Of a stretch of 64,000 bases of DNA, positions 1-64,000 are shown in pieces. Under the pieces are notes generated by a model, which was not told the origin of the DNA, did no database searches, and saw nothing but the letters and a program-made list of their open reading frames with translations. The translations under genes and the position numbers were made by a program. The stretch is from positions 33,595 to 97,594 of the forward strand of contig FN649757.1 in assembly GCA_000310025.1 (NCBI GenBank). Reading direction: 5' to 3'. How positions within the stretch are numbered: the first letter of the stretch is position 1; each line of letters starts with the position of its first letter. This stretch comes from Ectocarpus siliculosus (taxonomy: Eukaryota; Sar; Phaeophyceae; Ectocarpales; Ectocarpaceae).

Positions 1-3000
1 AAATATGCTACCTTGTCTTCCTGCGGACAGCAGTGGCAGATGAAGTCGTATAGGTCCAAAGGGGAAGCTACTCCGCCGCAGGTGTGTGGTCGGTTTTATC
101 GAAGATTCGTCTTGGAGGTCGTCGTCGAGACAGAGCATTGCCGACCGGAACGAAAGTGTGCCGATACAGTGTTGCTTACGTGCTTCACTGAGCTACCATA
201 GGACAAGGCAGTCCACCCGGCAGGCTGCATCTTTGGGCTGCACGGAAATGGGTGTTTGGCACGACAAGTGGCATTTACACCAATCTCCTTGCCGACACCA
301 CAACTTCCCGCTGCTTTCTCAGTCGTGCCCGCCCGCCCTCCTTGCTGACCCTTCAATCCCAGTTGAAGGAAGCTGCCACGGAGGTCGACCTATATCAATA
401 CGTCGCTCAGTCGTACAGAGCGTATGAGCAAATTCTCCACCAATTACCGAGCAAGCAAATCGCGACGACGTGCGAAAACCCATGCGACGCCGAGTCTGAT
501 CGCGGATCAGACAGTGGCCGCCGGTCCGACCACGTTTTTCTGCCTCGAGAGGTATCGGACGCCATTGGAACGTATTTGGAGAGCGTGCGTTGCCTCAGCT
601 TTGAGCCACTTGAAGAGGCGGTAGATCGGTGAGTCGAAACACGTGGTAAAAACGTGTTCGGGCATGTCGGCAGTCTTATGACATACGGGTGAGAAGATGC
701 GCATTTTACAATTCATATATGGCAGCAGAAGCCCTTGCGACGCGTACATCTTGATTTCGTTTTGGTTGTGGCATTTTCTTGGCCCTAATTCGACTTTTTG
801 TTCGCGCCTTTTCGACCTAAATGATGCAATACGGCTTTTTGCGGATGGATACACACACATGCTGAGACCATTGCCCGTGCAGCATCAAGCGCATGCTTCG
901 GTCGCGCTCATTGGCGAGAAGATGTTGGGGCACATCCGTAAAGACGCCAAAAGCTTGACAAGTCCAACCTTCTTCCGTAGACTACCATCCCTGTTTGACC
1001 TCATACTGCAGAGGGACGATTTCACACAAGATCCGCCAACCACCAGCAAACGTCGCCACAAGTTGGATGTGGGATGGGATGCCACCTCGTCTTGCGGGCT
1101 GGATGATCACCTAGTGCCAATTGCACATCGACAGGGTTTATTTGTCGTGTCATGTTAGGGGGAAAAAATATCACTATTCGCCGCACATTGGTTCTCGCGA
1201 AACGATCGTAGTTCCACCGCGCCCGCTAGTCATGTATCGTGAAACGATAACATTGCACCGTGTCACACGACTCAACTGCTGTCGCCTTTCCTCCCGTGAT
1301 TGACGTTTCATATTGTACGGTGTACCTTTCGGCGTGCTTTCCTCACCAAGACGATTTTCCGAGAATCAAAACCGACCGATGGAATCAATGAACTACAGCG
1401 TAGAAGACGCGCGCGCGGAAGGCCAGGAAGACCACTCGGCGAAACGCGACCGCTCCCTACGCTTATACGATGAAACCGCCCGCAAGCTTCCTTTCAAACA
1501 CAAACAGATCTACGTTTTCGCCAACACGGTAGTGTGATCCCGGTGTCCGTCCTGCCCCAGGGGCGGGAGGCAGCCATACCCTAGTCAACCGATATGAGGG
1601 TGTCACTGAGATGGATATCAGGGGGGACCCATGCCCCGACGGGCTGTCTGTCCTCCTTCTACTAGGTAACACCTTCACTACACCCGTTGATGAACTTCGC
1701 ACTCGTAATCGACCTGTATGCCTAAATCGGATGATGGGACTAATGTGCAGACCAAGCGTTCGTGGAGGTTTCGGCGGCCTGCTCATCAACCTGTGAGATG
1801 GGATATATGTTTTACGTGCAGATATTGTGTTTGGCTGGATCTACTGTTCCGATGTGCTGCATTTGTTAAAGGCTTCTGTGTTTAATATTGTCGGGCCATG
1901 AGGTGATCAGAGCAAGCCTGAGGCGACACACGGTCTTACAAGTTTTTCTTACTGTTCTGTGCCACAGTGTTTCGGTACTTTGGCACTGGCTATAACAACT
2001 GTGACCAGTGATGAATTTTGTTTCTGTTGATCAGAATGGAGTATCGAACGAGACTTCATCTTTTGACAGTACGTTTTGCCCTCGACCCCTTTTCTGGATT
2101 TCTGGACCCTCCAGAGGCCTTATCTTCACGAAGGCAGCACAGGGCGATCTGCATGCCGCCCTGGAAAGAATAGGCCGCTGCGTTGAGGTTTGCGAGCGAT
2201 ATCCTGGCTTGTGTCGCAGCACGGTGGGGTGAGTGGAGTTGTTGCGATGCAGAGGGAGGTGATATGTTGATTATATTTCCCCCGATCTGTTTCACAGATG
2301 GCGTGAGCGACTTCCGTACCCCGTTGGGATGGGTGTTGCAAGACGCTTCAAATATGCAGCTAAAGTGGGTAAAGATGTTCAGGCATAATCAAGTGTGGCG
2401 ATGGCGCGGTACTCCACAGCATGACATATTCACAAACAATTGTTCTAAGGTAATGAAAACGTTGGAGTGTTAATCTCCGCAAACACTTTTATTTTGTCGT
2501 GCTTGTTTTCTGCATGTTTGCGGTTATGATCAGGAGGTTGTCAACTGAGCCTCATTGATGCTACTGCTCGGCTGTTCCGCTTGAATCTACAACGTTTGCA
2601 AAGGTTGATGTGCGTATGGATAAGAAGAGTGTTGTGGTCGATGCATGTTCTGTTCTGCCAATGATCAACGCACCATGTTTGTTCTCTTTCGATTTTTGTG
2701 TCCAATTGCGTCTTGTGAGTTTTGGAATATCAGAAGCCGTTAGCGATGTCTGGTCACGACGTATAATGCCACTCTTTTTTGTTTGTGTCCCATGCTCGTC
2801 TGCTACAGCAGCAGCATCACCAGGACCCGCCGTGTTGCGTGATATCCTGCGCCTCCTGATATCTGTTTGGACATTTTTGCCTACAGTAGGTGATCAACCT
2901 GACGGAGAGCTCCCCTGCAGTAGGGGGCGTGAAAATACCATGTAATTGTCTATGACAGAGCGTACTCCTCTTCGATAAGTGTGTGGTGTCGTCTCCGGTT

Positions 3001-4383
3001 GATTGAGTGTATTGGATGGGTCAAGTCCTAATTCTACCCCCAGGGCACCAAGTAGGGTTCGGCCAAAACGCAACACCCGCCATTTCTCTGACATGCGAAG
3101 TTGGCGTGTTGCGGCCTTCTACACTGGCAGGGTGCCACGTCTGTGGTTTTGTTTCGTGCGGGACTTTGCTAACGAATCGGCTCACTCCATTCTTGTACTT
3201 TTCCTTTCTCCACCCTTCGAATAATCGTTCTGGCCGAGCATTTCTTGGAAATTTCTTTGCGTCACAAATGGTAGGCTTCCGCTTGGCCTGCTTCTCGGCC
3301 GTTTTTCTTTTCCTCGTGTATGGGGCTAGTGTGTGGCGGCGAGGATTTGTATCCCTTCGCCTAGTAGAGAAGAGGGGGACTGTATCTCGTGGTGTATCGA
3401 CAAGTATATGCTACAAATCGTCGTTGTCGAACCCCGTATGTGTTCCTCTGCCCCGTGCTACCCATGGTCCATGAAAGATGCCACCTGGCCCACATAGCGC
3501 TGGTATCTCTCGCAGCGGTTGGTGGGTCCAGAGCTCAAACGATGTATGACAGGCTGCGGGGGTCCTACAACTCGTGTCGCCCTGCTGGCTCGCGGCCCGT
3601 ACCCCCTTTGGAGGAGTGGGACCGAGTGGATGCCTTCTGCGACGATTCCTTTTGCAGGTATGCATGTTTGAAAGTATGAGACCCTTGCCGAGCATGCGAT
3701 ACAGAAACTTGGGCACATGGATGCCGGACAACGGGACTTACACAATGGTGCCTAACCGCAATATGGTGAGGACGATAGCGTGCGTTGGGCGATAGTTCGA
3801 AGGCGATATTCTTAACGTGGGCTTGGACGCACACGCGATGAACCCTGACGGCCCCTCCTTCCTGTCGACACCAAAACAACGATCAACCGTGCCACTCACT
3901 GATAGGGCGATGGACCTCGCTTCAGGCAAACTGAAGGCTCTCTCGGCACCACCCGTGGATAGCATTGACACCTGCGTGGAAGGGAAGGGCACGGACAGTG
4001 ACAAGGGCGAGACCATTTTCCAAGAAGGCTGGCAAACCCAGAGCGCCACGCTGCCAGCATCCAACATTCCCGAGAAGGTTATCAACACAGTTCCTGATTG
4101 GCCGACTGAGGGCGAGAGTGAATGTTGTGTCGGCTCCACTCAGGCGTCCGCATCACCGATTCCTTCTCCAGTATCCTCAGCCTAACCGCGGTGCGGTTTG
4201 AAGACGGACCTTCACTGCGACCACGTTGAAAGAAAGTTTGACAGCGTGGACATCGCTCCCGAGAGGTTGTCAAGGTTGCCAGGAATGCGTGACGGGGGCG
4301 GGGTCGTGGCAGATGCGGAGGAAGACGGCATTGGCGCAGAGAATTGGTTGGATGTGACGCATGGCATGTTAGATGCACTCTGA
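1..4383 (+). pseudogene. Gene A: 3' part of a Zn2Cys6-family regulator, with premature stop
   Basis: Six 3' exons of a paralogue of genes B, C and D; the 5' exons including the zinc cluster lie outside the window. Exons by comparison: <1-81 (exon 8), 363-628 (9), 1751-1792 (10), 2115-2228 (11), 3478-3657 (12), 3906-4383 (13). Every junction has GT/AG and the phases match the intact copies. Exon 9 reads LKEAATEVDLYQYVAQSYRA, exon 11 GLIFTKAAQGDLHAALERIG, exon 12 MYDRLRGSYNSCRPAGSRPV. In exon 13 a TAA at 4183-4185 lies where paralogue C has TAC; the same frame then stays open to the expected family stop at 4381-4383 and still encodes the conserved tail NWLDVTHGMLDAL. The product would therefore lose its last 66 residues. 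Intron 9 is swollen to 1122 nt (237-297 in the others). Either a recent pseudogene or a truncated protein without its C-terminal tail; a base-call error at one position is also possible. Confidence 0.75.
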
Positions 4384-4483
4384 ACCGAGTGACAACAACA
4401 TCCTGGCCGAAGCCAACTTGGCGTGCAAGCTCTGAGTAGCTCAAAGGGGATCAATACCGGGGGGGGGGGGGGGGGAGAGGGGG

Positions 4484-5117
4484 NNNNNNNNNNNNNNNNN
4501 NNNNNNNNNNNNNNNNNNNNNNNNNNNNNNNNNNNNNNNNNNNNNNNNNNNNNNNNNNNNNNNNNNNNNNNNNNNNNNNNNNNNNNNNNNNNNNNNNNNN
4601 NNNNNNNNNNNNNNNNNNNNNNNNNNNNNNNNNNNNNNNNNNNNNNNNNNNNNNNNNNNNNNNNNNNNNNNNNNNNNNNNNNNNNNNNNNNNNNNNNNNN
4701 NNNNNNNNNNNNNNNNNNNNNNNNNNNNNNNNNNNNNNNNNNNNNNNNNNNNNNNNNNNNNNNNNNNNNNNNNNNNNNNNNNNNNNNNNNNNNNNNNNNN
4801 NNNNNNNNNNNNNNNNNNNNNNNNNNNNNNNNNNNNNNNNNNNNNNNNNNNNNNNNNNNNNNNNNNNNNNNNNNNNNNNNNNNNNNNNNNNNNNNNNNNN
4901 NNNNNNNNNNNNNNNNNNNNNNNNNNNNNNNNNNNNNNNNNNNNNNNNNNNNNNNNNNNNNNNNNNNNNNNNNNNNNNNNNNNNNNNNNNNNNNNNNNNN
5001 NNNNNNNNNNNNNNNNNNNNNNNNNNNNNNNNNNNNNNNNNNNNNNNNNNNNNNNNNNNNNNNNNNNNNNNNNNNNNNNNNNNNNNNNNNNNNNNNNNNN
5101 NNNNNNNNNNNNNNNNN
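4484..5117. other. Assembly gap (634 N)
   Basis: A run of N preceded by a homopolymeric G tract (4459-4475) and GAGAGGGGG. The left flank still resembles the sequence downstream of gene B, while the right flank is already inside the copia gag region. The 5' LTR and the left insertion junction therefore must lie in, or be missing from, the gap. Confidence 0.99.
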
Positions 5118-5146
5118 GTACGGACAGTAGTGTCCAAGGCTTTGGC

Positions 5147-6014: not shown

Positions 6015-6058
6015 CACTGTCTGGAACCTTGGAGTTGGTGTTTGTGACTGCTGATTTG

Positions 6059-7110
6059 AGTTTCTGTAGAGTTGGAGCATGTATTGTAATCTCCCAACTT
6101 GGGATATCACCTCTTTTCTCCCAGCGCAGATTGGTGGTGAGTCATGGAATTACCTTGCTTGGTGGTCCTGATGGTGTGATGACTGTTTTCGACGGACATA
6201 CTATTTTTCAGAGCTTCGATGGCATGCTAATTAAGACTGCGTATCGTCTTGAAGATGAATCTGTTGGTTCGGTGTTAACTGCCCTCACTCCTTCAAACCC
6301 CAAGCATGAATCTAAGATGGATGTGAACGAGTTTCGTAACATTTATGCTCATTCGCATGAGGGATTGCTTCGTACAACTGCAAAGCGACTAGGTATCGAG
6401 TTGACGGGTAAAATGCATGCTTGTACGGGATGTTCGATGTCGAAGGCATTCAAGAAAGGGATTGCTCATGAAACAAAACGCAGATCAGACAAAAAGTTGG
6501 GCAGAGTTTTTGTTGACCTGGGAGGGCGGAAGGACGTTGCGTCCGTAGGGGGTAAACATTACCCCATGATAGTGAAGGATGATTTCACAAGACGCACATG
6601 GATGTATTTCCTGAAAGTAAATCAGACGCTGCGAGTGCTTTCCGGAGTTTCCTTGCAAGTGTGCGTGCTGATGGTATCCCATCATTGGTTGAGATTGTTA
6701 GATCTGACAATGGGGGGGAGTTTTTCGGAGGAGAATTTGCGTCCGTGTGCAACGAGCTCTTGATTAAGCAAGAGTTCACCCCGGCTTACAGTCCCCAATA
6801 CAACGGTGTTGCAGAGCGTGGTTTGGGATTGATTGAGGCGGCGGCAATGGCTGCTCGTATTCAGGCAAAAGTTTTGTTTGGGCATGTGCAATTACCAAAG
6901 ACTGATAGACTATGGGCTGAGGCGATGCATTGGGCTTGCGAAGCAATTAACCACACAGCTTGTTCCGCTAACCCCGACAGTAAGTCACCGTATGAGATGT
7001 GGCATGGTGAAGCTAGTCATGCTAGACCGTATCCGTTTTTGAAACCGGCGTACTGTAGGTGGCAGCGTCCGTCTAAGCTGCTACCGAAGGGTGAGGCTTG
7101 CTTTTTATGT
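6059..7110 (+). pseudogene. copia integrase region, two frameshifts
   Basis: The pre-integrase zinc-binding region (FRNIYAHSHEGLLRTTAKRL, then ACTGC) is followed by the DDE core: VFVDLGG (first Asp), VRSDNGGEFFGGEF (second Asp), YSPQYNGVAERGLGLIE (Glu). The frame changes by one base near 6612 (after WMYFLK, continuing SKSDAASAF) and again in the T-run near 7107, after which FYVGPSRDHPRECHRVLT continues into the next frame. All catalytic residues are present but no single frame joins them. The protein normally inserts the element cDNA into chromosomes. Confidence 0.8.
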
Positions 7111-9445
7111 CGGTCCTTCGAGAGACCACCCGCGTGAATGTCATAGAGTACTTACGAGGGCTGGAACTATTCAGGAAACGAGGAATGTGACATGGGAAGC
7201 GTTGCCGTCACAACTCCCTCCACCGCAACCGTCTCTCTTGCCGATAGAAGTTGCAGAGCAGGGAGGGGAGGAACGTGACGACGATGTAGAAGCTGAGGTA
7301 TGGCCGCTTTTAGGAAGAGGAGTTCCCCACATTCTTTTGCGACGTGATATCTCTGGTGGAACAATCGATGAGGTTGGCAGTGTTGATGCAGGCAGTGTAG
7401 GTCAACCCCCCTCTATGCCATCTTCGCCCGCGATTAATTCCCCTAGTAGCGCAGCTCCCCCTGTGTCTTCTCCAGCAGACGAGTTCTTCGATGAGGGAGG
7501 GCAGGGAGGGCCGGAGACAGGGCAGACAGAATCGGCGGGTCCGGGAGGGCAGGAGGTAGAGTCGGAGAGTCAGGAAGGTTTGGATCAAGAGTTGGTTGAG
7601 CCGGGAGGGCAGGAGGTACAATCGGAGGCATTTCCCCCTGCTACGCACGTACCATCTAATCGTCGTGCGCGGCATGAGCTTGCTAGTTACAACACTGCTA
7701 TGAATGAGAATGTTGAAGTCAGAGAAGGCAGAACCCGTGCGCAAACTCGGGCAGTAAATCAGCAGAGCGTACCCGGCCTCATGGCCACTCTAGGACCCAT
7801 CTCCGCATCAGATATAATATTGGCACTCTTAGTCGAACAGAGAGCATCTGATGCAATGGAATTGCCGAAAGTACTAATTCAAGATGTAGAGTCAGAACCG
7901 GGTAGCTATCAAGAAGCCCGCCAATCAAAGTATTCCACGATTTGGGACGAAGCCATGTCTGTAGAATTTGAAGGCTTGTTAAGAGCAGGAACGTTTGCGT
8001 TAGCAGTAAAGGCTCCAATAGGCTGTAACGTGATAGATGCTAGATGGGTCTACAAATGGAAAGCAGATGAAACAAGTAAGATAGTGAAGGCCAAGGCTAG
8101 GCTTGTAGCGAAGGGCTTCAAGCAGAAGTATGGTGTGGATTATCTTGAGACTTTCTCGCCTACTGCAAATGCTGCATCGATTCGTTTGTTGGTAGCATTG
8201 GCGTGCAAGTATGATTTGGAATTTCTTCACTTTGACATTGAGCAAGCGTTTGTTCAGTCGGAATTGGATCACGAGGTGTTCATGAAGTTGCCTCCTGGCT
8301 GTGAGTCGATGACAGGAAAGGTAGTCCGTTTAGACAAGAGTTTGTATGGACTGAGACAGGCATCTAGAACATTTCACAAGAGACTTGTGTCGGACCTGAA
8401 GAGGATTGGTTTCGAACAGTCTCTGTCTGACCCCTGCGTTCTTCGTTTCATGATGGGAGACGAGGTGTTGGGTATGATTGCGATTCATGTGGATGACATT
8501 CTGTATGCAGGAATTGAGAGGCTTGCCAAGATGGTTGTGGAACCGCTAGGTGACTCTCTCCCCACGAAGAATTTGGGCGAGGTCAAGTTCTTTCTTGGTT
8601 GCGCATTCGTTCGCGACCGCGAGGCTGGTACGATTGAGATGTCTCAAGAGAGTTACATCAGGAGTGTTCTCGAGAGATTCAATGTTTGTCGCACCAGCTC
8701 GATCCCTGCTTCCCCTGCTAACGATTACAGGTCCGTGATGGAGGATGAGGGGGCAGGAGATGTGCCGTTCCGAGAGGTGGTGGGGAGCCTGATGTGGATC
8801 GCCAACCAGACAAGGCCCGACATCTCAAATGCTGTGCGGGCGGTGGCGAGGCACTCTCACGAGCCAAAGAAGAGCCACTGGAAGGCGGCCCAGAAGATTC
8901 TGAATTATCTTCTGGAGACGGCACATCTAACTTTGAAGTACAAGCAGGACACTATGGTAGACGTAGGCACGTTGGTGTACGTAGACGCAGACTTCGCCAG
9001 TAAGGCCACTGACCGTAGATCAGTTTCGGGAGCACTAGTTCTTGTAGCTGACTGTCTTGTTGCTTGGATTTCTAGGACGCAGAAATGTGTCACACTTTCA
9101 ACCACTGAAGCAGAGTATGTTGCGATGGGTGACGGTGTGAAAGAGGCTCTGTTTGTCAACGGAATGCTCGAGTTCTTGAGGCCTAGTGAGAAGCTTGGTA
9201 AGATCCAGGTACGCGAGGATAACGAGGGTGCAATTGCACTTGCTGAGAATCCACTTAGTTCGTGTAACAGTAAGCACATTGACGTGAGGCACCATTTTCT
9301 TCGGAATTTGACAGAAGAGGGAGTGTTGGAAATCAGTCATGTCGCTAGCGAAAGACAGCATGCGGACATCCTGACGAAGGCGCTGCCGAGAGATCTTTTT
9401 GAAGTTCATCGTAATTTTGCTCTAGGCTCGAGATCTGAGAAGTAG
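7091..9445 (+). CDS. copia reverse transcriptase-RNase H, 784-codon open frame
   Basis: A long open frame that is the 3' part of pol; the listed start is only the first ATG in frame, since translation normally comes from the upstream polyprotein. Residues about 30-290 are a Pro/Glu/Gly-rich linker with a repeated GGQEV(E/Q)SE motif. The RVT_2 domain spans about 290-540: FDIEQAFVQ near residue 380, YGLRQA near 420, and the catalytic HVDDIL near 465. RNase H (about 620-770) shows YVDADFAS, STTEAEY, EDNEGAIALAEN, HIDVRHHFLR and ADILTKALP. Catalytic residues look intact. The separation from integrase by a frameshift makes the whole element defective. Confidence 0.93.
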   Translation: MRLAFYVGPSRDHPRECHRVLTRAGTIQETRNVTWEALPSQLPPPQPSLLPIEVAEQGGEERDDDVEAEVWPLLGRGVPHILLRRDISGGTIDEVGSVDAGSVGQPPSMPSSPAINSPSSAAPPVSSPADEFFDEGGQGGPETGQTESAGPGGQEVESESQEGLDQELVEPGGQEVQSEAFPPATHVPSNRRARHELASYNTAMNENVEVREGRTRAQTRAVNQQSVPGLMATLGPISASDIILALLVEQRASDAMELPKVLIQDVESEPGSYQEARQSKYSTIWDEAMSVEFEGLLRAGTFALAVKAPIGCNVIDARWVYKWKADETSKIVKAKARLVAKGFKQKYGVDYLETFSPTANAASIRLLVALACKYDLEFLHFDIEQAFVQSELDHEVFMKLPPGCESMTGKVVRLDKSLYGLRQASRTFHKRLVSDLKRIGFEQSLSDPCVLRFMMGDEVLGMIAIHVDDILYAGIERLAKMVVEPLGDSLPTKNLGEVKFFLGCAFVRDREAGTIEMSQESYIRSVLERFNVCRTSSIPASPANDYRSVMEDEGAGDVPFREVVGSLMWIANQTRPDISNAVRAVARHSHEPKKSHWKAAQKILNYLLETAHLTLKYKQDTMVDVGTLVYVDADFASKATDRRSVSGALVLVADCLVAWISRTQKCVTLSTTEAEYVAMGDGVKEALFVNGMLEFLRPSEKLGKIQVREDNEGAIALAENPLSSCNSKHIDVRHHFLRNLTEEGVLEISHVASERQHADILTKALPRDLFEVHRNFALGSRSEK

Positions 9446-10657: not shown

Positions 10658-10917
10658 CCAATAGGAGGGCAGCAGCGATTCGTTCACGAAATCACCGGCA
10701 TCACATCACCTCCCCGCGAAAAACTCCACGCAGCAGTCGCGCATACTACGCTGGGTGCCCATCGAGTGTCTCCTTATCTTTCTCTCTCTTCCTGTGCCTG
10801 CCCCCTTGCAAACGCAGAGGGGACGAGCTCTGTGCCGGGACAGAAACAGGAAACGCCTGACGTCCCACCGCACAAACATTGACTGGCCGTTACGAGAGCG
10901 AAACCACCCAACCATCC
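10658..10917 (+). promoter_or_regulatory. Conserved promoter region of gene B
   Basis: CCAATAGGAGG lies at 10658-10668, about 250 bp before the ATG, followed by GCAGCAG. The same block precedes genes C and D at similar distances. A pyrimidine-rich stretch (TCTTTCTCTCTCTTCCTGTG) and a segment around CTCTGTGC are also shared with C. A CCAAT-box role is inferred from the sequence and position; the transcription start was not located. Confidence 0.5.
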
Positions 10918-25523: not shown

Positions 25524-26078
25524 CGAGAGTATCCTCGCGGATGCCAACTTGGCTCGCGAACTCTGGGCATAGTGCTCGCTTGAGAATTGTGTGGTTTGAG
25601 CACTGCAATAGGCTATATATCAGTTCAGTGTAGTTCAATCTCGACTTCGGAGTACGAAATATGGTCATCACAGGAGCCTAACGATTGAGAACATGTGGCC
25701 ATTAATTTTTTTCTGCTCTGCAATACTTCTGTGTTTTTCGAGAATGAACGATGTCGGAAGGTTGTGCATAGGCGGGACGGTAGGTGATGGCGGAGAGCTC
25801 TCACCTAATTGCGAGCTCCTTCATGACAGATGTCCCGCGGTTTCCGTCGAGCATTGGGATTCTTCGTCCACACACGTAGAGGCGTGATGCTACTCCGGGG
25901 ATTTAGTTCCACCAAATAATTGATGTCGTGTTTTTGAGTCAAGTCATATGTACTACAGGGTAAGGTTTGACGTGCAATACCCTTGCTGTATGCGTACGAT
26001 GAAAAAAAATATCACAAAAACATATGGTCGTGTGCCCGCTCCCAACAAAAGAGAAACCCCGAAAAAAGTATTTAGGTG
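25524..26078. other. 3' flank of gene B, no gene seen
   Basis: The first 60 bases resemble the 3' flank of genes A and C (GCCAACTTGGC), so this is probably the 3' UTR of gene B. I see no clear poly(A) signal or open frame of note before the dispersed repeat starting near 26.08 kb. Confidence 0.4.
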
Positions 26079-26610
26079 GGTGTACTCATAGTCGTGCATG
26101 CCGTAGTCGTGCCGTCGTCGTTAGACCGTTGACCTCGCATCCCTATAAAGCCGGGACGGAGCACGCCGGGTTCTCACCGGACCAGGCTCTCACATCACCA
26201 AGCGCGAAGCGCCGTGAGGTATTTGGTGACTCGCGTGAAGGGTGCGCTGCATGCTGCTAAGGGTGTTCGGCATCTTGTGCTTACTTCCTTGCGTACGGAT
26301 GACACAGCTGTGGATGACTTAATTACTTTGTCTGGTGCTTTTCACTTTCATAGAAAGTTTTAAGCACTGTGTAACTGCCTCGAGTGCTGGATTAATTTTA
26401 CACAAGGCGGTGCGATTATCCCCTTTGCACGGAGTGAGGATTCTCGACCCCGCACAACAGAATCTACTCGACCACCATTCATGGTTACCGTCAAAAACCC
26501 CAGAGGCAAAACAAATAAGCGGAAATCTGGTGGTCGAGCTCCCGAAGTGATGGGCTTGTTACACAACATCGTTGCCAAGCGACCAAAACCCAACCCCGAT
26601 GACAGACATT
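26079..26610 (+). repeat. Dispersed repeat, + copy (partner at 38.09-38.62 kb, -)
   Basis: Resembles the minus strand of 38090-38620 over about 530 bp. The best-conserved part translates to RPLTSHPYKAGTEHAGFSPD (26132-26191); the few nucleotide differences from the partner within that stretch are synonymous. This suggests a fragment of a once-coding element, family unknown. Confidence 0.55.
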
Positions 26611-26780: not shown

Positions 26781-27066
26781 GGGCCAAGCCTGTGGGTTTC
26801 AACCAAAGCTGTGGTTCTTGGCCAAATCACCGGTACCGTCATTTTCTCGATTACCAGCCACCACGCCGCAACTGCTGGTGTTGCCACAAGTCTCTGCCGC
26901 CCATTCTCGTCCTTTCTTCCCGTGCCTGCTTCGTTTCGTGCCGAGAGGCGCCGTGCTCTGTGCTGTGGTCAGGAAACACTAGGCACCTTTATAGGTTCAA
27001 TCGATTCCGTCCGGAGCCCCGAGCGACGTTCTTTGCACACTATACTGGTCGCTACGAGAGCAACCA
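26781..27066 (+). pseudogene. Decayed paralogue: promoter/5'-region remnant
   Basis: Shares GCCAAGCCTGTGGGTTTCAA with the gene C promoter (GCCGAGCCTGTTGGTTTCAA), then CGTGCTCTGTGCTGTGGTCA with the C 5' region, and GGTCGCTACGAGAGC with gene B just before its ATG. The zinc-cluster exon that should follow is absent. Confidence 0.45.
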
Positions 27067-30960: not shown

Positions 30961-31193
30961 GACTGAGGGTGGGATGTGTCGATATGTCACTGACTGGTTC
31001 AGAGCTTTTGAGAAAGTTTCCCACCAACAGAGAGCAACCAGAGCGCGACGGCCGGCGAAAACCTATGCCAGGCATAGTCTAGATGAGACGCATTCCGTCC
31101 GTTTCCTGCAAAAAGAGGTGGCGGGTGCTATGAGGATGGTGCCGCACAGTGGGAAAGGTCTCGTCTTGGAGCCGCTTGAAAAAGCAATTTTGA
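30961..31193 (+). pseudogene. Decayed paralogue: exon 9 remnant
   Basis: ATEGGMCRYVTDWFRAFEKV aligns with exon 9 of genes A-D (ATEVELYQYVAQSFRAFEQT in C). The alignment then shifts frame near 31025 and resumes in DNA (GCGCGACGGCCGGCGAAAAC) to LEPLEKAI and a donor-like GTGAGTCGAAACACG. The neighbouring exons are missing. With the promoter piece at 26.8 kb it may mark a dead gene copy between B and C. Confidence 0.6.
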
Positions 31194-32034
31194 GTGAGTC
31201 GAAACACGCGTGGGCACGAGTTTATACACACTTCTTCGAAGATCAACAGCGACCTGCACCTGGAGACAGGGTGGTTGACCGTATCGTCGGATTTCGGGGC
31301 AACCGCCCCGTTACCCCGAGAAAACCTCACCTTTGTGCTCGGGAAAAAATGTACTATAAAGATCGTCATTGGACCATCTACAAGTATCGACGATACACTT
31401 GATTTGAGCGAATGAGAGACAGCAGCCCGCAGTTGTGGCACGGTCCGACGAGACCCCGTTTGTGAGGCTCGGCATAGGAGCGATATCCAGTGTTGATACT
31501 CGATGGGGCACAGGAGGTGCGACAAAAAAATCGATACCCTCGAGCCAAGTACACTGCAGCTGCATCCTCGGAAGTGATGTGCACTTGCGCACATGCCGAC
31601 GACTGACTGAAAAGACAGATAGTATCTATTACAATTCAAAGTTCCTGTGGGCTACAAATGGTCGCTGTATTGGTTTTAGAGTGGGGCTGATACTCGGGCT
31701 CTCCAGGGGTGCTCAAGCTCCTACATATGTAGTCTTCTACAGCAGAGGTTCAGACATGTGCGCTGGCTGCAAGCGACGTAAACAAAGAGCGTTTGCGAGA
31801 TTTGCACGGCTCAATGAATCACCTACAGCACATAGTCTAAAGCGTGCAGCGGCGGGGACTTACCTGCAGCATAGCAGCCAGCGCGCTTTTTGACAGGCTC
31901 CCATTCTCACACTCGTGCGCGGAACTGCTGTGTATATGTGGCTTGCCTGTGTGTAAGTCACAGTACAACAGCAGCACACGTTCACCAGGCATAAACGCCC
32001 ATAAAACGTTCCTTGCCGAGCCTGTTGGTTTCAA
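31194..32034. other. Gene-free stretch before the gene C promoter
   Basis: No exon of the family is found here. A short CAGCKRRK-like translation at 31759 recalls half a zinc cluster but lacks the remaining spacing. Confidence 0.4.
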
Positions 32035-32256
32035 CCAATAGGAGGAGTGCAGCAGCTGTTGTGCACGAAAAAATTCCGAAATTTCCCTCACCGCTTCAGC
32101 CGCCGCAAGACGCTAAATAGCAGTTCCTTAGGTCTCTGTCGCCCCAACTCTTGCTCTCTTCCTGTGCCCGCCCCCTTGAATGCGCAGAGAAGACGTGCTC
32201 TGTGCAGTGGCCAGAACCACGAAACACCTGAGAACTGGCCCACGAAACTGGTCGTG
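32035..32256 (+). promoter_or_regulatory. Conserved promoter region of gene C
   Basis: CCAATAGGAGG at 32035-32045, 222 bp before the chosen ATG, followed by AGTGCAGCAG. A downstream block (CTCTTCCTGTGCCCGCCCCC, then GTGCTCTGTGC) matches gene B and the decayed copy at 26.8-27.07 kb. This is probably promoter plus 5' UTR. Confidence 0.5.
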
Positions 32257-46970: not shown

Positions 46971-48877
46971 ACGGAGTGACACGAGCGTCCTCGCGGAAGC
47001 CACCTTGGCTTGCAATCTCTGGGTTGGGAAGAAACCGGTGGTTCGTTTTCATCTCTCGAATTTGTGGTTGAGTATTGCTACAACCGTAGTTCCATCTTCA
47101 TACAAGCCTTTGGAGTACGGTAGGACGAACTTTCAACAGAGGAGCCAGAATGTTCAGAAAATGTCACGGTTCCATTCATGTTGGCTGCTCCAAGCCTCTG
47201 CGCTTTCGGCGAAGGCTACCAAGTAGAGACGCCGTCACGGTGACATGACTTTCATGCTACGGCAACACGCAAGATATGGTCTGTCAAGTAGCCCCCTCTC
47301 GGTTTTTCGAAGCGTGAAGAAGCCCCGTCACAATACGTTGTCTACTTTCGGCAACCGGTTGGGTCTAGGCTTTGGGTGTTGGCGATCCTTTTTGCGCTCG
47401 GTTGCATACACCACTATAAGGTATACGTTGGACGGCAACAATCGCAGCTTCTACAAGGATCAGTCACGTCGAGCTAGGCATTCACGGGCCTCACGGGCCG
47501 ATAGATCCACGTTGCGTGCAATAAACGCAGGATGATTCGTATCATGGGGGCAGCGCCCAGAATTGTGTGGAGTGTCCCAATACAGTGTCCAAACGCAAAG
47601 GGCGCGTGCGTAACCAACAATATTTCTTTAGTGCTTGTTTCGGGATAGCGCTGACTGAAACCCCAAGATGCAGTTAGGGGAATAGACATTGTAGGTCTAC
47701 ATATATATATATACTATTTGTATCAACGAAGACCACATCGTCGGTGTCGGGACCTGAAAAATTCATTAACTGCGACAGATTTATACCTGCCAAATCCTCT
47801 TCTGCACTGTTGTAGACCAAACCAAGCAACACGTTGAGAATGCTCCAATGGCGGCAAGCTTCCTCCACAGCGACACGGTCCCTTCACAGATGTTTTTTTG
47901 TGTACTGTAGTAAGGATGCGAGAGAACGCGTGGGGGTGCGATCGATTTTTTAATGATTACGTTCGTGTCATATTTTGTCGCACGGGGATGCGATATCATC
48001 ACCGGTACGTGATATATCACCGAACCCCGTGCGATAATCGAGCTACATAAATCGTGTCGAGACCCTGAGCTTTTGTCGCACTGGGGGTGCGATAGCCCCG
48101 ATACGTGCTATTCTGAGTAAACGATAAAACTCTAATATCGCAGCAGGTATGTATGCCGTTTTCATCTTTACTGACTTTGTGTTTTCAACCCACGCCGTCG
48201 TGCGAAACCCAACATGTCACAGCCGTACTGCAGGACACACACTGCTGCCATACGAACTAAGGAACTGGAGCCTAAAAAGAAACTCAAAATCCAAGAACTT
48301 GAGCACCACATATGTGGGCTCGGCTAGGAACAACTCTACGCTACAACCAACAGACTATATCGGCCATTTTTGTAGCATGATCCCACAGGGTAGGAAGTGA
48401 AAAGCCTCGGCCAAAAACTACAGTAGAGGTTCTTAAGTGCGGGCGTGTTCTGTATTCTGTACAACACCTTTCACAAGGAAGCTCCGCGGTTCCCCTCGCG
48501 CAGGGAGCGCCGTGGAACTACTCGGTCGGGGCACTCGGTATCACCGGTGATGTCGCACGCCCCCCGTGCGATACCATCGATCCCCGTGGGATAATCGAAA
48601 TGAACACGTTCTTTGTTTTTGGGGTCGGTAATTTACGTGCGATATCACCAACCCATGCATTCTCTCTACTCGCATCCTTCGGATGCATATACAGCAGTAC
48701 TGTATGCATAGTCTAACATGGGCATGCCACAGCCTGCGTATGTCACAGCCTGCATGCACGACGAGCAGGTACAGCAGCAGCAGTGCAGCAGGAGAAAGAA
48801 TATGCATACGTCCTACCATTACATTCGGAATGGTCCTCAGATCCGTCCCCGTCCACAAGCAGTACTGTCGGTTTAAG
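46971..48877. other. Intergenic region between genes C and D
   Basis: It starts with the 3' flank conserved among copies (AGCCACCTTGGCTTGCAA). An (AT)n tract is at 47698-47714. Between 47.92-48.12 and 48.54-48.60 kb, GGGGTGCGAT / CCCCGTGCGATA motifs recur in both orientations. No gene is seen. Confidence 0.5.
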
Positions 48878-49124
48878 CCAATAGGAGGCGCAGCAGGTAT
48901 TGTCCGCCGCCAACTCTCCGAATCCCCGCCGATTTACCGCGTAAAGACCACGTGCACGCGCCGTTTCTCGCGCTGCCTCTTTCGCGCTACTCCTATTTTC
49001 CTGTACCTCCCCGCCTCTTTGTTGCATGTGCAAAAGCAAACGCTCCTTACCGTGAGTAGGATCACGAAGCACCACAGGAGTACAGCCGTACATGTTGTAG
49101 TCTTGTGCTGCTGTAGTACCATCC
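48878..49124 (+). promoter_or_regulatory. Conserved promoter region of gene D
   Basis: CCAATAGGAGG at 48878-48888, 247 bp before the ATG, followed by CGCAGCAG. The DNA between is more diverged from B and C than the CCAAT block, so the block itself stands out as conserved. Confidence 0.48.
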
Positions 49125-52100: not shown

Positions 52101-55100
52101 GTTGACGGAGAGTGTCCATGACGTCCTTGCGTACAGTACTTCGTTGCGCGTGTTCATCGTGCCGCACTTCATATTCTGTTGCTATGCAGGTTCAGGTTGA
52201 CTGCGTCTCCGGCGACTGGCCTGGTGGGAATGCAGGAGAACGCTTTCCTCAGCGACTTCTTTGGCTGCGTTGGTTTCGTGCCGCTCACCTCCCACAGGTA
52301 TGGAATGCAGTGACAAATGCCACACATTTAGCGAGGAGAGCTGCTTGCTGTGGACGCCGCAACTTCGCAGTTTGCTGAAGTGACTGATGCTTCGTATACA
52401 TGAAGCGGTGCTGGGGTAGGGTTTGAGTGTTGTTGTTTCCCCTGCCACCCGAAGACCATCGTCCTACCCGTCGCTGACCGGTCGCAATTTGCTGTGTTGT
52501 GGTTGATTTGGCCAGTCATATTCGCGAGACGATGGTGAAGATCATGGCATCTCCTGCCCCTTTGCAGCAGTCAGCCATTGGGGGCGCCTTTGGCGGGGTC
52601 GGTTCTATGGTTCGGGCGCGATGTTGGAACAAGGCCTCGGAAAAACCTCAACTTCCTATGGACCCGTCAACTTGCACTTTCTGGTGTGCTATTGCTCTGG
52701 GCGCACTTGCGAAGGGCTGTCCTGTCGAGTCGGTAAGACTTTTTCTGCGTTCTGGCCTGAGAGCGGTCCCCCTGCATGTTGAAGGCACGACTGGTGAGTA
52801 GTACTGCGATGGTTTATCTTGGCTTACTCATTCGACAGCCCTCCATGCCTCACTGGTGGTTCGTGACAGGTGGCAAAGTACCGTCATCTGGCCCACGAAG
52901 CGCTGACAAAGAGCTATCCGAGTTCCGCAGACGCCGAGGTGGCCACGTGAGGCAGTCGGGGATAGGCTCCGCCAAGGCCACTGCTGCCCTTGACTTATTG
53001 CCACTGTTCTTAGCCTGCACGCCTGCTGTGTGGCGTTCCATCTTGGCTCTCTGTAGATCAAAACGCACGGCTTGATGTTCCCGTTCTGGGCGGTCTCTCC
53101 TAGCCTCGTGCTTCGATAACCATGAACGTGTCCACCCTCCCTGCTTGTTCTTTTCTGTTCAGGGCATGGGCAATGCTGGCCTACGTGTACGGGTTCATGG
53201 GAGACTTGGTAAGCCGTTCCCCATGACCCTACTGTTCATTCGGATGCGTTTCGCGGTTGAGAATGTTGGCTCGTGAGTTCTCTCGTGTCAAAGCAGTCGA
53301 AGAGCGTCAACAATGCAGGTGGCAACCGTTCAAACACGTGGCTTCCAACAGCTTGCTTGTGGCACCTTAGACATTGTCTGCTCCAGTTTCTATCTCTGTG
53401 TTTGGTTTCCTCCGAATCGTTTCCGGTTGACTGTTTTGTGTGTTCTACAGGCAAAGTTCCAAGAGTACCTGGCCCTTTCGGAGTCTTTTTTGAAAAGTGC
53501 TACCGCGAAACGGTGCACGGACACTCTTCCATTGGTGAGAAGTATGTTTGCACCCGGGTTGGGCTCTGAAAGTGGCCGGGGTACGAAGAGCTTGCCCCCT
53601 CTACGCATGCCTCTGCTGTTACCGTGGATTGCATGAGATCCCACACTTCCGTCGACAATTTTCATAACTGAACAATTCTGCAGCAAACAGCGACGGTGCC
53701 GAAAGCAGCAGCGTTGGAATTGTCTCGTCGTGAACTTTCCGAAACCGCATCATTTGCGTTTTGGCGGTTTCCGTGGAGTTCTAGAGCTGTGACAATAACC
53801 GGTCTGGTTGTGTGTATCTTATGCAACCTACGGCACAAGTACGGCCTATCCATGCGACGACCTGACCACTACTGGCTCGTTTGTCGGTCTACGCAAAGCG
53901 TGAACTCCGTGCTCCAACAAAGGTACCTACTCATACAAACGATATTGAACCATCCCCGATCCATTTATTCGCTATGATTTGATTCATTTCCTAGCTATGA
54001 TTTGGGTAGCGGTAGCTGATATCGTTGACACCTGGGCATACATGCCATGCGGCCGCGCTCTGACCAGGGCTTCGCGGAGGTTGTCCTGCCTGTAAAGATC
54101 CCCAACGCCTCCTGCGGGCAGTGGGAGACGAAGTCGCTTGACGCCGAAGAGCGCGTTCCTCCGCAGGTGGGTTGGGTGGGTGGGTTGTATCGAGTCATCT
54201 GGCAAGTATTTGAACCGGAGCTGATTGAAAGGGAAAGATGTGCACCGGGAGGGCCTTGCGTACGTGCTTGTGCGCTGGACCCGGAAAAGGCGGTGACTTT
54301 GCGATGAATTGAGGTTAATATTGACCACGCAATGTCGCAAATGGAAACCGATCGTCAAATTTTGTTTTCATGACCTACTGTTCGTGCTTTCCGCTGGCCC
54401 TGCCATCCCAGTTGGCCGACGTTGCCGCCGAGGGCGAGCTATATAAATACATCGCTCAATCGTTTAAAGCGTTCGAGCAAGCTTTCCAACAGAAAGCTTA
54501 TAAGCAGAGCGCGAGGGATGTCGAAACCCCAGGCGAAACCGAAGGTCATGGCGAATCAGACAGAAATCGCCGGCGCCCAAGCGCTCTTCTGCCTGGCGAG
54601 ATTTCGGAAGCTATGGGGACAGTGTTCGGAGATCGGAATCTTCTTGTCTTCGAGCCTCTTGAAGAAGCAGTTGATCGGTGAGGCGAATGATATGACGCAG
54701 ATGCCTGTGAACGTAGGAAACATGTAGTAGCAGCAGGACGGTTAGTATCGACCGATATCAGGGTGGCCCGAGGGGTGATATCAGGAGCCATCGAGGCCCG
54801 ACCGGCTTGGCCTTGGCTTTACGGAATTGATTTGCGCTTTCAACTGGCTCTCATCGTCCCATACGACCATTGATGTGTGTCTCACCGCAACCGGCTTCCT
54901 TGTGTAAATGGGATGCAATCACTCTGGCGACCAGACCAAGCATTCGCGGGGGAATCGGCAGTCTTCTCATCAATGGGTAAGCTGGGCATGTTTTCGAGAG
55001 TTGAACTTCAGCAATACCATGATTTGCATGGGGATCATGATCGTTCGAGCCGATGTTTGTGGCTGCTCTTTGGTGCTGGCCGCGGCGGTATCATGATTTA

Positions 55101-57379
55101 ATGGTGGACATAAGAATTGTATACCCAGGAATTGAGATGCCACCTGGTCTACCATAAGCACGTTTCAATTCAGCGTGGCAGTTGCTCAACACTTTGGCAA
55201 CTGCATATTATCACTGTGGCAAATACGTACGCTCGACAGCTTCTCTTGGTGAAGAGTGTATCCCAAGTCTCTTACCTAACGGAAATTCCTCACGCTATGA
55301 TGTTCCGCCCTTGGCCTTTGTCCTGGCAAATCTCGAATCCGTCAGTACCCTTGTCTTCGAAAAGGCAGCAAAGGGGGATCGTCGGGCCACCCTGGAGAGA
55401 ATAGGCCGCTGCGTGGAGGTTTTTGAGCTATATCCTGGAATGTGCCGCTGCACGATAAGGTGAGTTGCCTGTGCGCCCCATGGTGCTTGCAAAGACGGTG
55501 TGTGAACGTTTTTCATCTGTTTTGTATATCCCCCGGTTGCCGTTAACAAGCGACGTGAGCTACGTTGGCTATGCCTTACGAGAGAACCCGATGAAACGCG
55601 ATAATTGTGTGTCTCTGCCTGAGGCTATTTTGTTTCCTGATAGCCAGTTTCGAGTTATCCTCTGGCAGCTGTAGAACGTATTCCCGACGTGTTCTTCAGG
55701 ATACGTCGACGTTTGTAGCAGTGTGTTGTCCGTGTCACGTAACGATCCCCTAAGTTCTGCGTGAATTAGGAATGCATGACCGGATTTTGGCAGGCCTTTC
55801 AAAGATTGCCCCGGAAGTTGCAAGCGATACTACCTGTGACAGAGTGTACTGAATTTGCGTGTCGTGGGTTTTCCGTTTATTTTGGTTCAATGCGTAACTC
55901 TGGTTTGCCTCCAGGGCGCGGGGTAGGGTTGGCCCGGTCGGTAAAACACAGACCTGACTACCCGCCTTAGCTGCATTGTCTTGCGAGGATATATTGTTGT
56001 TCAGGTCTCCTGTGTGTAGTAGTGATACTTCAACAATGCCTCTTGTCCAACCTTCCATTTGAGAAAGGGATGTCTTTTTTTTTTATTGTTTGCTTAGCGT
56101 TTGGCCTTGCACTCCTGTTTCTTGTTTGTTTGGACATTATCCTTCCGAAATGTATTCCTTCGCATGTGGTAGAAGTAGTCTGGGTCGGGGTTGATTGTAG
56201 TTGTCTTTGCCTTAGTTGGGGCTTTTCTCGTGACCATGGAACGGTTTTCTTGGCCTCCGACGAGCAGGGAAAATGAGATTCTGGGACACAACATAGAACG
56301 GGTATCGAAATGAAGCCAACAGCACGACGCGTTTACAGGAGTCGCGACTGTTTTAGTTAGGGTTGGTAGAGGGCAGCCATCATGGTGCACCGACGGAGCC
56401 ATTTGTGCTACGAAGTGACCTCTTGAATGCCGGTTTTCCCATCTGCCCCCCACCACCGGTGTATTCATGAAAGCCACCATAAGGCACACATAATGCTGGT
56501 ATGTCTGGCAGCGATTGGCGACTCCAGCGCTCGGGCGATGTACGACAGGTTGCGTGGGTCCTACAACTCCTTCCGCCCTGCCGGCTCTCTGCCCGTACCC
56601 CCCTTGGAGGAGTGGCAAGGAGTGGGTGCCTTCTGCGACGATTTCTATTGCAGGTATGTGTGTTCGAGAACGTTGAAAACCGTGCTGATCATATCTCTGG
56701 GAAGAAACAGAACGACGGCAGAAACGTCGTGTACTGCTGTGAATGCGGGAGACATCGTAACTTCTGCACAGCTCTCCTAGCGTTGTTTCGATTTAGTTTC
56801 GTCCCAACTATTTTCTTAACATGATCTTGGAGTTGTGCCCTGGAGCACGTGGTCGACCCGTGCCGTGTGATTAGTGTCCGGTACCCGTTACTTCTATCAC
56901 AATGCAACCTTCGACCGTTCCACGCACTTGATAGGGCGATGGAGGGCCTCGTTGCAAGCGACCTAATGAAGGCCTTCTCGGCGCCGTGCGTAGACGGCTT
57001 CGACGTCTGCGTTGGGGCGAAGGGCACGGGAAGTGACAAATTGTCAACATGCGACAATCCTGAGGAAAACATCGGCACAGTTCCTGTCCGGCCATCTGAG
57101 GGCGGGGGTGGATCGGGCTCCACTCTGGCGTCGACAATGATACCGGTTGCGCCTCCTGCATCCTCACACCATGCATGGTGCCATTTGAAGGCAGAATTTC
57201 ACTCGGATCAGATTGAAAGCAGCGTTGCCCTCATGACCATGGCTGACGAGTCACTTCCGAGACTACCGCAACTGAGTGAGGGCAGCGGTTTGTTGGAGGA
57301 CAATGAGGACCGCAGCATCTTCGCCGATGATTGGTTGGATGCTACCCATGCCATGTTGGATACAGTTTCAACAGTGTGA
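49125..57379 (+). CDS. Gene D: Zn(2)-Cys(6) fungal-type transcription factor, 669 aa, 13 exons
   Basis: Exons: 49125-49273, 51374-51556, 52190-52297, 52516-52732, 52870-52946, 53163-53208, 53451-53534, 54068-54166, 54412-54677, 54935-54976, 55346-55459, 56474-56653, 56935-57379 (TGA). Total 2010 nt, no internal stop. Zinc cluster C33-C36-C43-C49-C52-C59; the PCRRC around Cys4/Cys5 is the form most like fungal clusters. The ATG sits in ACCATCCATGGA, shared with B. Residues about 200-290 (FWCAIALGALAKG, KYRHLAHEALTKSYPSSADA, AWAMLAYVYGFMGDL, KFQEYLALSESFLK) form a TPR-like helical run; exons 11-12 (TLVFEKAAKGDRRATLERIG, AHIMLVCLAAIGDSSARAMY) give a second. The tail is DDWLDATHAMLDTVSTV. This is the most compact gene (8.3 kb, intron 1 only 2.1 kb), so it may show the ancestral structure. 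A MITE-like element lies in intron 7. Confidence 0.9.
49546..49570. repeat. (AC)n microsatellite
   Basis: About 12 AC units in intron 1 of gene D, ending at CAACTTG. Confidence 0.9.
53622..53833. mobile_element. Diverged MITE-like element in intron 7 of gene D
   Basis: Ends are inverted: CCGTGGATTGCATGAGATC on the left and, read on the minus strand, CCGTAGGTTGCATAAGATAC on the right. The inside (GCAGCAGCGTTGGAATTGTC, then TCGTCGTGAACTTTCCGAAA) matches the core of the 62.7-kb element (GCGGCGTTGGAACCGTCTCG). A TA precedes the left end; the right flank is CA. Confidence 0.5.
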
Positions 57380-59801: not shown

Positions 59802-59932
59802 ATGCTGTTGAACAATGGGAACGACCACGTTCGAAAGGCGACATGCTCGCGGCCGGGGCTGTTGGGAATGCGGAGGAGTTGCTCAGAATGTGGACGGAAA
59901 AAGAAGAGCTGCGATGGTCATCAGCCTTGCGG
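59802..59932 (+). CDS. Gene E: first exon of another Zn2Cys6 paralogue (rest beyond window)
   Basis: A 131-nt exon: ATG, 43 codons, then the split GG codon and donor GTAAGATCC, like gene B. It encodes LGMRRSCSECGRKKKSCDGH and PCG, the first four cysteines (C27, C30, C37, C43) of the zinc cluster with correct spacing. The residue just before Cys3, R in the other copies, is S here. No exon 2 is visible in the remaining 4 kb, but intron 1 reaches 7.8-8.9 kb in B and C, so the gene may simply continue past position 64000. The CCAATAGGAGG promoter block found upstream of B, C and D is not recognisable here, so a promoterless or dead copy cannot be excluded. Confidence 0.6.
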
Positions 59933-62339: not shown

Positions 62340-63320
62340 CCCCTATACATCTGGAAGTACGTTGGCGGAGATCTGTGATGACTGTGCAGCTCCCCCCTTC
62401 ATCTATCAGGAGAACCGCCCAACCGAAAAGCCCGGCGCTGCCCCCCTTCATCTGGAGGCGCGGAGGTGAAGAAAATGCTGCCCTCCCCTACATCTGAAGA
62501 GCGGTGACCTGCGTTGCCCCCCCTACATCTGGAGGCAGGCGTGCCGGTGAAGAAAAGTTGCTCTCCCCTACATCTGGAGAGCGTACACCCGCGCCGCCCC
62601 CCCTACATCTGGGGGCGCGCCGGTGAAGAAAAGTTGCCCTCCCCTACATCTGGAGAGCGTGGACCGCGCCGCCCCCCCTACATCTGGGGGCTCGCTGGTG
62701 AAGACCTGCTGCCCTCCCGTATACCGTATATGACACAAGATAACACACCCCCTGGGCCGATTTTCAAAGCTCGATTTCTCAACAGCAGGAAGAGTCACAG
62801 CGCCGAAAACGGCGGCGTTGGAACCGTCTCGTCGAGAGGTTTTCGAAAATGTATTGTTTCGTTTATGCATCCTCTTCGTCGTGGAGTAATCGAGCTTTGA
62901 AAATCGGTCCAGGGGGTGTGTTATCTTGTGTCATATACGGTATCTGGAGAGCGTTGACCCGCATCGCCCCCCCTACATCTGGGGGCGCGCTGGTGAAAAA
63001 CTGCTGCCCTCCCCTACATCTGGAGAGCGTTGGCCCGTGCTGCATATGGAGGTGCACGGGTAAGGAACTACTGCCCCCCACGTCTGGGGTGCGTCATCTG
63101 GCACTGCCCCTCCCTACATCTGGAGGACCTATACTGATGCCCTCCTCCCATTTTTCTGGAGAGAACACCTATGAGATATTTGCGCTACCCCCCCTACATC
63201 TGGGGGTGTGTGCTAGTACCCTCCCCTACATCTGGAGAGCACACCTACGAGAATTTGCGCTACCCCCCCTTCGACTGGGGGTGCGTCTCAGTGTCAGGAC
63301 CTTCCCCTACAGCTGGAAAG
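62340..63320. repeat. Minisatellite of CCCCTACATCTGG units
   Basis: At least a dozen copies of (C)nTACATCTGG(A/G)G, alternating between CCCCCCTACATCTGGGGGCG and CCCTCCCCTACATCTGGAG, with GGTGAAGAAAAGTTGC spacers, giving a higher-order unit of about 75 bp in the middle. It is interrupted by the MITE at 62724-62940. Confidence 0.8.
62724..62940. mobile_element. Palindromic MITE with long inverted ends and TA flanks
   Basis: Left end CCGTATATGACACAAGATAA, right end its reverse complement. The inverted match continues about 54 bp on each side (through CACACCCCCTGG and CGATTTTCAAAGCTCGATT) with a single mismatch. TA borders both ends, the target duplication typical of Tc1/mariner-type elements. 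The core of about 110 bp is shared with the 53.6-kb element. Too short to encode a transposase. Confidence 0.8.
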
Positions 63321-63439
63321 CACAATTTTAACCCTTTTGAGTCTTCAGGCGTTCTCACTGATCATTGATTGATCATTTGGAAATGCTGGTGTAGTGGCAA
63401 ATCGTGGAGTTGCCGCCCTGCAGCCCTTCGCGCCGTGTA

Positions 63440-63530
63440 TTGGCAAGTCCATAGGTAGGTGTGTCTAGATTATTAGCACCCGCGCTAACCGGCTGACCAA
63501 TGAAGAGACTTCAGTGACAGCGGGTAATGT
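63440..63530 (-). repeat. SINE-like family 2 unit, minus strand
   Basis: On the minus strand it reads CTTCATTGGTCAGCCGGTTA then GCGCGG, preceded by CCTTGACATTA. It matches the unit at 13.84-13.97 kb over both blocks, about 50 kb away. Confidence 0.45.
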
Positions 63531-63599
63531 CAAGGTCTCGGGAATGGGAATGGGGCCAATCAATGCCAAATCATGAATCTCTCAATGTATGTACATGAA

Positions 63600-63640
63600 C
63601 GCGTGTGTGCATACAGTACATACATACATACATATGTGTT
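63600..63640. repeat. (CATA)n microsatellite
   Basis: Tetranucleotide ACAT/CATA repeats at about 63612-63632. The remainder to 64000 contains only short ACT/AAC triplet tracts near 63830-63850 and no gene. Confidence 0.7.
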
Positions 63641-64000
63641 CTTTCGCAGCACCACACATACACTCGCCCGAACGTAGGAAGCCACTGCTGCAAAGAGCAG
63701 AGGACAGCCAAAGGGAGGGGTATTGCAGTCCCTGCCGAAGCCCAGATATCGAGGATATCGTGGTTCCCAACAATTTGAAAATCGTTCCGAAGATCCAGCA
63801 GTCATTGTGTCAACAGCTACAACGAACGCTACAACAACACTACTACTACTGCTGTAGACGAGTAAAACATATCAGCAACACATCCACACTCGTAGCGCCA
63901 CACATACCACCCTCGCCCGAACCTAGGAAACCACGAGGTACAGGTGTGTGCTGGTGGATGTGCTTGTTGTTGGAAAAACACAGGAGCTCTAGAGAGTTGG

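Follow-up and report, generated by a model that had tools for sequence, protein, structure and literature searches.

The 64,000-nucleotide stretch of Ectocarpus siliculosus DNA analyzed here (the window; C32:33595-97594, where C32 is the 932-kb contig FN649757.1 of a 189.5-Mb assembly with 492 contigs) carries a head-to-tail array of genes whose proteins begin with a zinc cluster of the Zn2Cys6 type. On sequence grounds, we consider it probable that the window is part of a large, tandemly multiplied Zn2Cys6 transcription-factor family of a brown alga, retained by selection while some of its copies decay. A brown-algal, non-fungal host, which had been surmised as a brown-alga or stramenopile source in a first-pass annotation of the window, is supported by EsV-1-7 repeats, a family with a reported expansion in brown algae (in the passages at hand of PMC7457493). 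All 150 matches scored in this genome, out of 880 candidates, passed the EsV_1_7_cys cut-off. Contigs C11 and C30 bear both EsV-1-7 repeats and Zn2Cys6 family members, which argues against contamination. Positions given without a contig name are those of the window.

A conserved 13-exon gene structure

Self-comparison of the window revealed head-to-tail blocks on the + strand, and alignment of these blocks provided the splice sites and exon models listed in Table 1. Genes B, C and D are complete, each with 13 exons, GT donors and AG acceptors, a single terminal stop and identical intron phases, and their coding sums of 2073, 2022 and 2010 nt, respectively, are each divisible by three. Exons 2, 3, 5, 6, 7, 9, 10, 11 and 12 have equal lengths in the three genes (183, 108, 77, 46, 84, 266, 42, 114 and 180 nt, respectively), with length variation found in exons 1, 4, 8 and 13. 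The encoded proteins of 669–690 residues are 57–64% identical pairwise. Intron 1 extends over 2.1–8.9 kb and intron 11 over 1.0–2.1 kb, the remaining introns measuring 137–633 nt. As a chance control, the same modelling gave a single candidate exon over 10 strand-segments free of gene models, compared to 274 for the main segment when its gene strand was used.

Gene A is truncated by the window edge only, its exons 1–12 being located at C32:27130-37251, and its last exon contains an in-frame TAA at 4183-4185, upstream of the conserved C-terminal motif. Gene E is present as exon 1; a 10.5-kb run of N starts directly past the window end, downstream of this exon, and the exon at C32:114434, past the run, may be exon 2 of the same gene. 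Remnants of a decayed copy sit between genes B and C. A block common to A and B at 2559-2699, initially considered as a possible exon, corresponds to no exon in the final models.

The first-pass annotation had described at least five head-to-tail paralogues (A partial, B to D complete and the first exon of E) together with one decayed copy, 13-exon sums that are multiples of three in all three complete genes, and nine internal exons of identical length, all of which are borne out by the models and remnants. The kilobase introns that it mentioned are found at introns 1 and 11 of B, C and D but not at the others, and its five-gene array stands as a description of the window content but not of the extent of the family, which is far larger.

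A zinc cluster divided between two exons

The peptide joined from exons 1 and 2 matches the Zn_clus family (PF00172) in each of the genes B, C and D, the three members taken into the profile scan, with 33.6, 29.6 and 28.0 bits against a curated cut-off of 21 (E-values of 4.1e-8, 7.5e-7 and 2.4e-6, respectively). This is the match that had been named at first pass as a check on the assignment. The cysteine spacing in all three is C-x2-C-x6-C-x5-C-x2-C-x6-C, with intron 1 placed after the fourth cysteine, leaving four zinc cysteines on exon 1 and two on exon 2. In an alignment of 19 members, the six cysteines and a lysine of the first loop (K44 in the numbering of C) are among 67 invariant columns, counted where filled in at least 15 of the 19, and the cysteines are preserved in each zinc exon listed across the family. 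By position, K44 aligns with the DNA-contacting lysine 18 of Gal4. A search of the PDB with a profile of B, C and D identified seven chains at E up to 1, the top four of which are the zinc domains of Pho7 and Put3 (best E of 1.3e-4 and 1.1e-3, respectively). We propose that the cluster is put together across the intron, with four cysteines contributed by exon 1 and two by exon 2, and that it would bind CGG-type DNA via the invariant lysine. A coiled-coil dimerisation element is common, though not universal, after Zn2Cys6 clusters.

When the genome was searched in six frames for Zn_clus (E up to 0.001), 12 places were identified, and no family exon-1 match better than E 0.03 lies at any of them. 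Weak exon-1 matches on contigs C17, C347, C21 and C26 (E 0.03-0.53) coincide with four of these places, which are taken to be other Zn_clus genes. The strong exon-1 loci of the family are missed by such a search because the cysteines are divided four plus two between the exons, and the intron-split cluster may likewise make the family hard to see in annotations. A separate single-exon Zn_clus match lies near the array at C32:151417-151503 (- strand), outside the family exon-1 matches.

Family members across the genome

Using exon 12 as query, 48 matches were found in the genome, none of which has a stop in the matched stretch. At least 41 are strong loci with E of 4.2e-12 or better, distributed over C32 (27, between 23 and 673 kb), C34 (six), C11 (three), C16 (two) and C30, C116 and C3 (one each); the seven weaker matches are all on C11. 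The matches on C32 are all on the + strand up to 277 kb, with orientation changing beyond. Searches starting from exon 1 returned 52 matches with E up to 1, of which the weakest probably do not belong to the family, and those from exon 2 returned 30; with the complete protein C, 66 of 374 candidates were scored. A scan of viral contigs (query A1) returned 36 pattern matches and no relative.

Family loci were modelled with a splice-aware modeller using B, C and D as references. Nineteen of 20 loci yielded 11–13 exons, with nine models of 13 exons (B, C and D included), nine of 12 and one of 11. Exons 3, 6, 7, 10 and 12 each have a single length in all 19 models. Exon 1 is absent from three models, two of which adjoin N runs, and exon 2 from one. 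Identity among members goes down to 39%.

Two places on these contigs deserve separate mention. Stretch L028 (C11:231501-241500) contains two exon 12-like places of 36–42% identity and no strict zinc motif in its 10 kb; it is possibly a second family with the same body, and its first exons may lie beyond the stretch. The exon-12 matches at C32:557762-557938 and C32:635331-635507, on the same strand and 78 kb apart, have equal score and identity to the query, possibly reflecting a recent large duplication or an assembly repeat.

Selection on the family

The ratio of nonsynonymous to synonymous substitution rates (dN/dS) of exons 1–12 is 0.39–0.73 over nine close pairs. For individual regions, values were pooled over seven disjoint pairs, of which five were usable for exon 1, six for exon 4 and three for exon 13. 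Within the zinc parts, dN/dS was 0.21 at the end of exon 1 (28 residues) and 0.40 at the beginning of exon 2 (20 residues). Low or middling values were also obtained for exon 3 (0.12), exon 10 (0.24), exon 12 (0.41) and exon 8 (0.62), and high values for exon 9 (0.78), exon 13 (0.75) and the part of exon 2 that follows the cluster (residues 21–61; 0.78). No pooled value exceeds 1. This pattern indicates purifying selection on the exon-1 portion of the zinc cluster and on parts of the body, whereas the residues following the cluster, exon 9 and the tail evolve fast.

Alternatively, unequal crossing-over could have generated an array made up mostly of duplicates that are in decay and have little function. 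The decayed copy in the window, the stop in gene A, the one degenerate locus among 20 modelled, the unfound last exon at C32:167861 and a dN/dS of 0.73 in one recent pair would fit such an explanation. Nevertheless, we judge it very unlikely, considering that 19 of the 20 loci keep 11–13 exons, that stops are absent from all exon-12 matches, that dN/dS stays at or below 0.73 over the nine pairs and takes its lowest values in exons 3 and 10 and in the zinc part of exon 1, and that a promoter element is retained by some family members.

In a tree of 19 members with midpoint root, nine of 16 inner branches are well supported. Array neighbours often cluster, as seen for C32:18-45k, C32:114-168k and the C34 genes; C32:315-359k groups with C11, and gene C with a C16 gene. 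These groupings fit tandem duplication plus dispersal, and the family probably expanded through tandem duplication, inversion and dispersal in a process of birth and death.

Body, tail and alternative readings

The proteins of B, C and D share a layout of an N-terminal zinc cluster, a basic stretch, a body and an acidic tail with a conserved WLD motif near its end. The motif, WLD[VA], is present in all 13 modelled exon 13s and was not seen in the 2.5 kb downstream of exon 12 at C32:167861. It may be likened to acidic activation motifs, presumably in the manner of VP16. In the bodies of B, C and D, and in a scan of eight bodies, no Pfam family was found apart from weak tetratricopeptide repeat (TPR) matches, namely TPR in D at E 0.1, TPR_8 in two of the eight and TPR_12 in one of the eight (best E 0.14-0.16). 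We do not claim a TPR identity for the body from matches this weak. The sole structure match, to a capsular polysaccharide enzyme at E 0.6, was judged to be chance.

Several observations weigh against the window being part of a retained regulator family. The gene models were built from genomic DNA alone, the modelled loci represent 20 of the 41 strong exon-12 loci (27 fetched stretches plus the window, with A to D included), and the search for exons was confined to preset lengths and placed candidates most like B, C and D first, a procedure that leans towards uniform lengths without imposing them. The degenerate locus, C32:209364-215098, has four exons only and a decayed appearance. Exon 13 is absent from six of the 19 models: four of these reach the limit of the fetched DNA, gene A carries its stop, and at C32:167861 none was found. 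The zinc half of exon 2 differs in 40% of residues over all pairs, no less than exons 5, 11 and 12, so that binding specificity may differ between members. As for the body, a structure-sequence search found no credible solved structure matching it, and the Fungal_trans domain (PF04082), suggested as a check at first pass, is without a match in B, C and D at E up to 1. Eight bodies likewise gave no Fungal_trans match at E up to 5, although most matches weaker than an E of about 0.1 are lost to the HMMER filters. A Fungal_trans search of the genome itself is uninformative, as neither it nor its controls gave a match.

A body devoid of any known regulatory domain also leaves room for a zinc cluster that is kept in a structural or an RNA- or protein-binding role, with no part in DNA-binding regulation. 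The divergent C11 group, with exon 12-like sequence and no strict zinc motif in 10 kb, points the same way, although its first exons may lie outside. We consider this explanation unlikely, however, since few stretches are as constrained as the zinc part of exon 1, since basic residues and the invariant lysine are preserved, and since the acidic tail retains WLD[VA] throughout the modelled exon 13s. A recent transfer from a fungus followed by multiplication would account for a zinc domain that is of fungal type and has fungal domains as its best matches. This origin is highly improbable, as twelve introns at fixed phases and the low identity among distant members indicate an old family, the body lacks a Fungal_trans match, and comparable factors are reported from other algae in the available passages of PMC4827209.

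For the regulator family that we favour, the body would handle recognition of a partner or ligand, and the C-terminal WLD[VA] motif would bring in a co-activator. More speculatively, and with low confidence, the genes could form a regulator class that arose within a brown-alga lineage, in which a better-conserved Zn2Cys6 reader is joined to a new body domain diversifying between tandem copies, the array acting as a bank of sensors that feeds chemical, microbial or self-recognition signals into overlapping CGG-type target sets. If this were true, the family could count as one of the genome's larger transcription-factor families.

Elements upstream of the first exons

Genes C and D are preceded by a 26-base block containing an inverted CCAAT box. 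Its match in nine of 21 upstream regions, C itself counted, exceeds the best of 50 shuffles; gene B matches 15 of the 26 bases, which is not above shuffles. The shorter sequence CCAATWGGA is present in three copies on the window's + strand, located 260 (B), 222 (C) and 247 nt (D) ahead of the start codon, and is absent from the other strand. Of the eleven copies in 284,659 bases (window included), seven fall within the regions preceding the 21 modelled first exons, which make up 5% of this DNA, and four lie elsewhere. Eight of the 21 upstream regions hold the element, with one site serving two divergent C34 genes. The computed probability of 2.8e-7 overstates this enrichment because the element was chosen from the same data and the paralogues are related.

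Direct repeats of CGG at a spacing of 7 number 18 in the 21 upstream regions against a mean of 6.9, a count reached in none of 200 shuffles; this is the best of 48 type-and-spacing classes, uncorrected for the 48, among related paralogues. For these reasons, autoregulation through the CGG pairs is suggestive and we do not claim it. Head-to-head first exons with a short common intergenic stretch were observed at C16:2383354-2384676 and C34:179134-179800, with one CCAAT element on C34.

Relation to known systems

The Zn2Cys6 domain is already known in stramenopiles, whose transcription factors were reportedly treated by Rayko et al. in 2010. The first-pass annotation took Zn2Cys6 factors to be known mainly from fungi and a clustered, 13-exon family to be unusual; the first of these views needs correcting, since such factors have been reported in algae including Ectocarpus. 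'Fungal TRF' genes are described in haptophytes, Nannochloropsis and Phaeodactylum, at 0–27 per species, in the passages at hand of PMC4827209, and those of PMC3879662 name two Ectocarpus 'fungal TRF' genes that rank with the most highly expressed transcription factors in gametes. The present family is like these algal Zn-clus factors in having the same DNA-binding domain in photosynthetic stramenopiles, whereas the passages of the two accounts describe no clustered family, gene structure or body. Among the top-ranked open-licence PubMed Central matches, there was no report of the array, the split zinc cluster, the gene structure or the body.

Compared to fungal Zn(II)2Cys6 proteins (Gal4-type, PF00172), the family shows the same cysteine spacing, a basic first loop, an N-terminal cluster, a long body and an acidic C-terminal tail. 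It differs in the lack of a Fungal_trans match, the splitting of the cluster by an intron of 2.1–8.9 kb (B, C and D), the 13 exons, the tandem array and the non-fungal host. The KRAB-type C2H2 arrays of animals are tandem zinc-finger regulators shaped by birth and death, and the Ectocarpus genes resemble them as regulators multiplied in tandem in that manner. The folds are unrelated, however, and the DNA-contact region, which diversifies between paralogues in an arms race of the KRAB type, is here the slower part, with 0.21 and 0.40 for the zinc parts against 0.78 for exon 9, and is also slower than the tail.

Transcription-factor genes number 257–299 in three brown algae, with Myb as the largest class at 70–79, and no Zn2Cys6 class is named in the available passages of that source (PMC6418280); those of PMC12629598 give 325 transcription-associated proteins in Ectocarpus species 7. 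The species behind these counts may differ from the present one. Should the models prove correct, a type of genome with 257–299 counted transcription factors would contain at least 41 related regulator loci, and similar families may be missed wherever gene models lose exon 1. A slower DNA reader joined to a faster body would provide a testable case of a non-fungal eukaryote using and expanding the Zn2Cys6 domain.

Feature coordinates and neighbouring sequence

Table 1. Genes, remnants and upstream elements of the Zn2Cys6 array (window positions)
Feature	Position	Strand	Details
CCAAT-box element upstream of B	10658..10668	+	CCAATAGGAGG; half of the 26-base block only
CCAAT-box element upstream of C	32022..32047	+	CCAATAGGA at 32035
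CCAAT-box element upstream of D	48865..48890	+	CCAATAGGA at 48878
Gene A, 3' part	1..4383	+	exon 8 end 1-81, exon 9 363-628, exon 10 1751-1792, exon 11 2115-2228, exon 12 3478-3657, exon 13 3906-4383
Gene B, 690 aa	10918..25523	+	exons 10918-11072, 19966-20148, 20412-20519, 20717-20942, 21132-21208, 21421-21466, 21696-21779, 22074-22178, 22469-22734, 22972-23013, 23343-23456, 24612-24791, 25037-25523
Gene C, 673 aa	32257..46970	+	exons 32257-32417, 40207-40389, 40870-40977, 41199-41376, 41563-41639, 41858-41903, 42143-42226, 42520-42618, 42896-43161, 43459-43500, 43835-43948, 46095-46274, 46487-46970
Gene D, 669 aa	49125..57379	+	exons 49125-49273, 51374-51556, 52190-52297, 52516-52732, 52870-52946, 53163-53208, 53451-53534, 54068-54166, 54412-54677, 54935-54976, 55346-55459, 56474-56653, 56935-57379
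Gene E, exon 1 only	59802..59932	+	first four zinc cysteines
Decayed copy, exon-9 remnant	30961..31204	+	65-70% DNA identity to B and C
Decayed copy, 5'-flank remnant	26890..26988	+	73% to C 32132-32229

Between genes A and B, an 800-residue open frame at 7043-9445 (+ strand) matches a copia-type reverse transcriptase (RVT_2, E 1.2e-50). Just past gene A, positions 4484-5117 are 634 N, and the long open reading frames listed across this run are artefacts. Two inverted copies, 83% alike, lie at 26078-26608, adjoining the decayed copy, and at 38103-38619, within intron 1 of gene C; they resemble mobile elements. Finally, a tandem array with a unit of 75–80 nt occupies 62441-62718, and related repeats extend to 63324.

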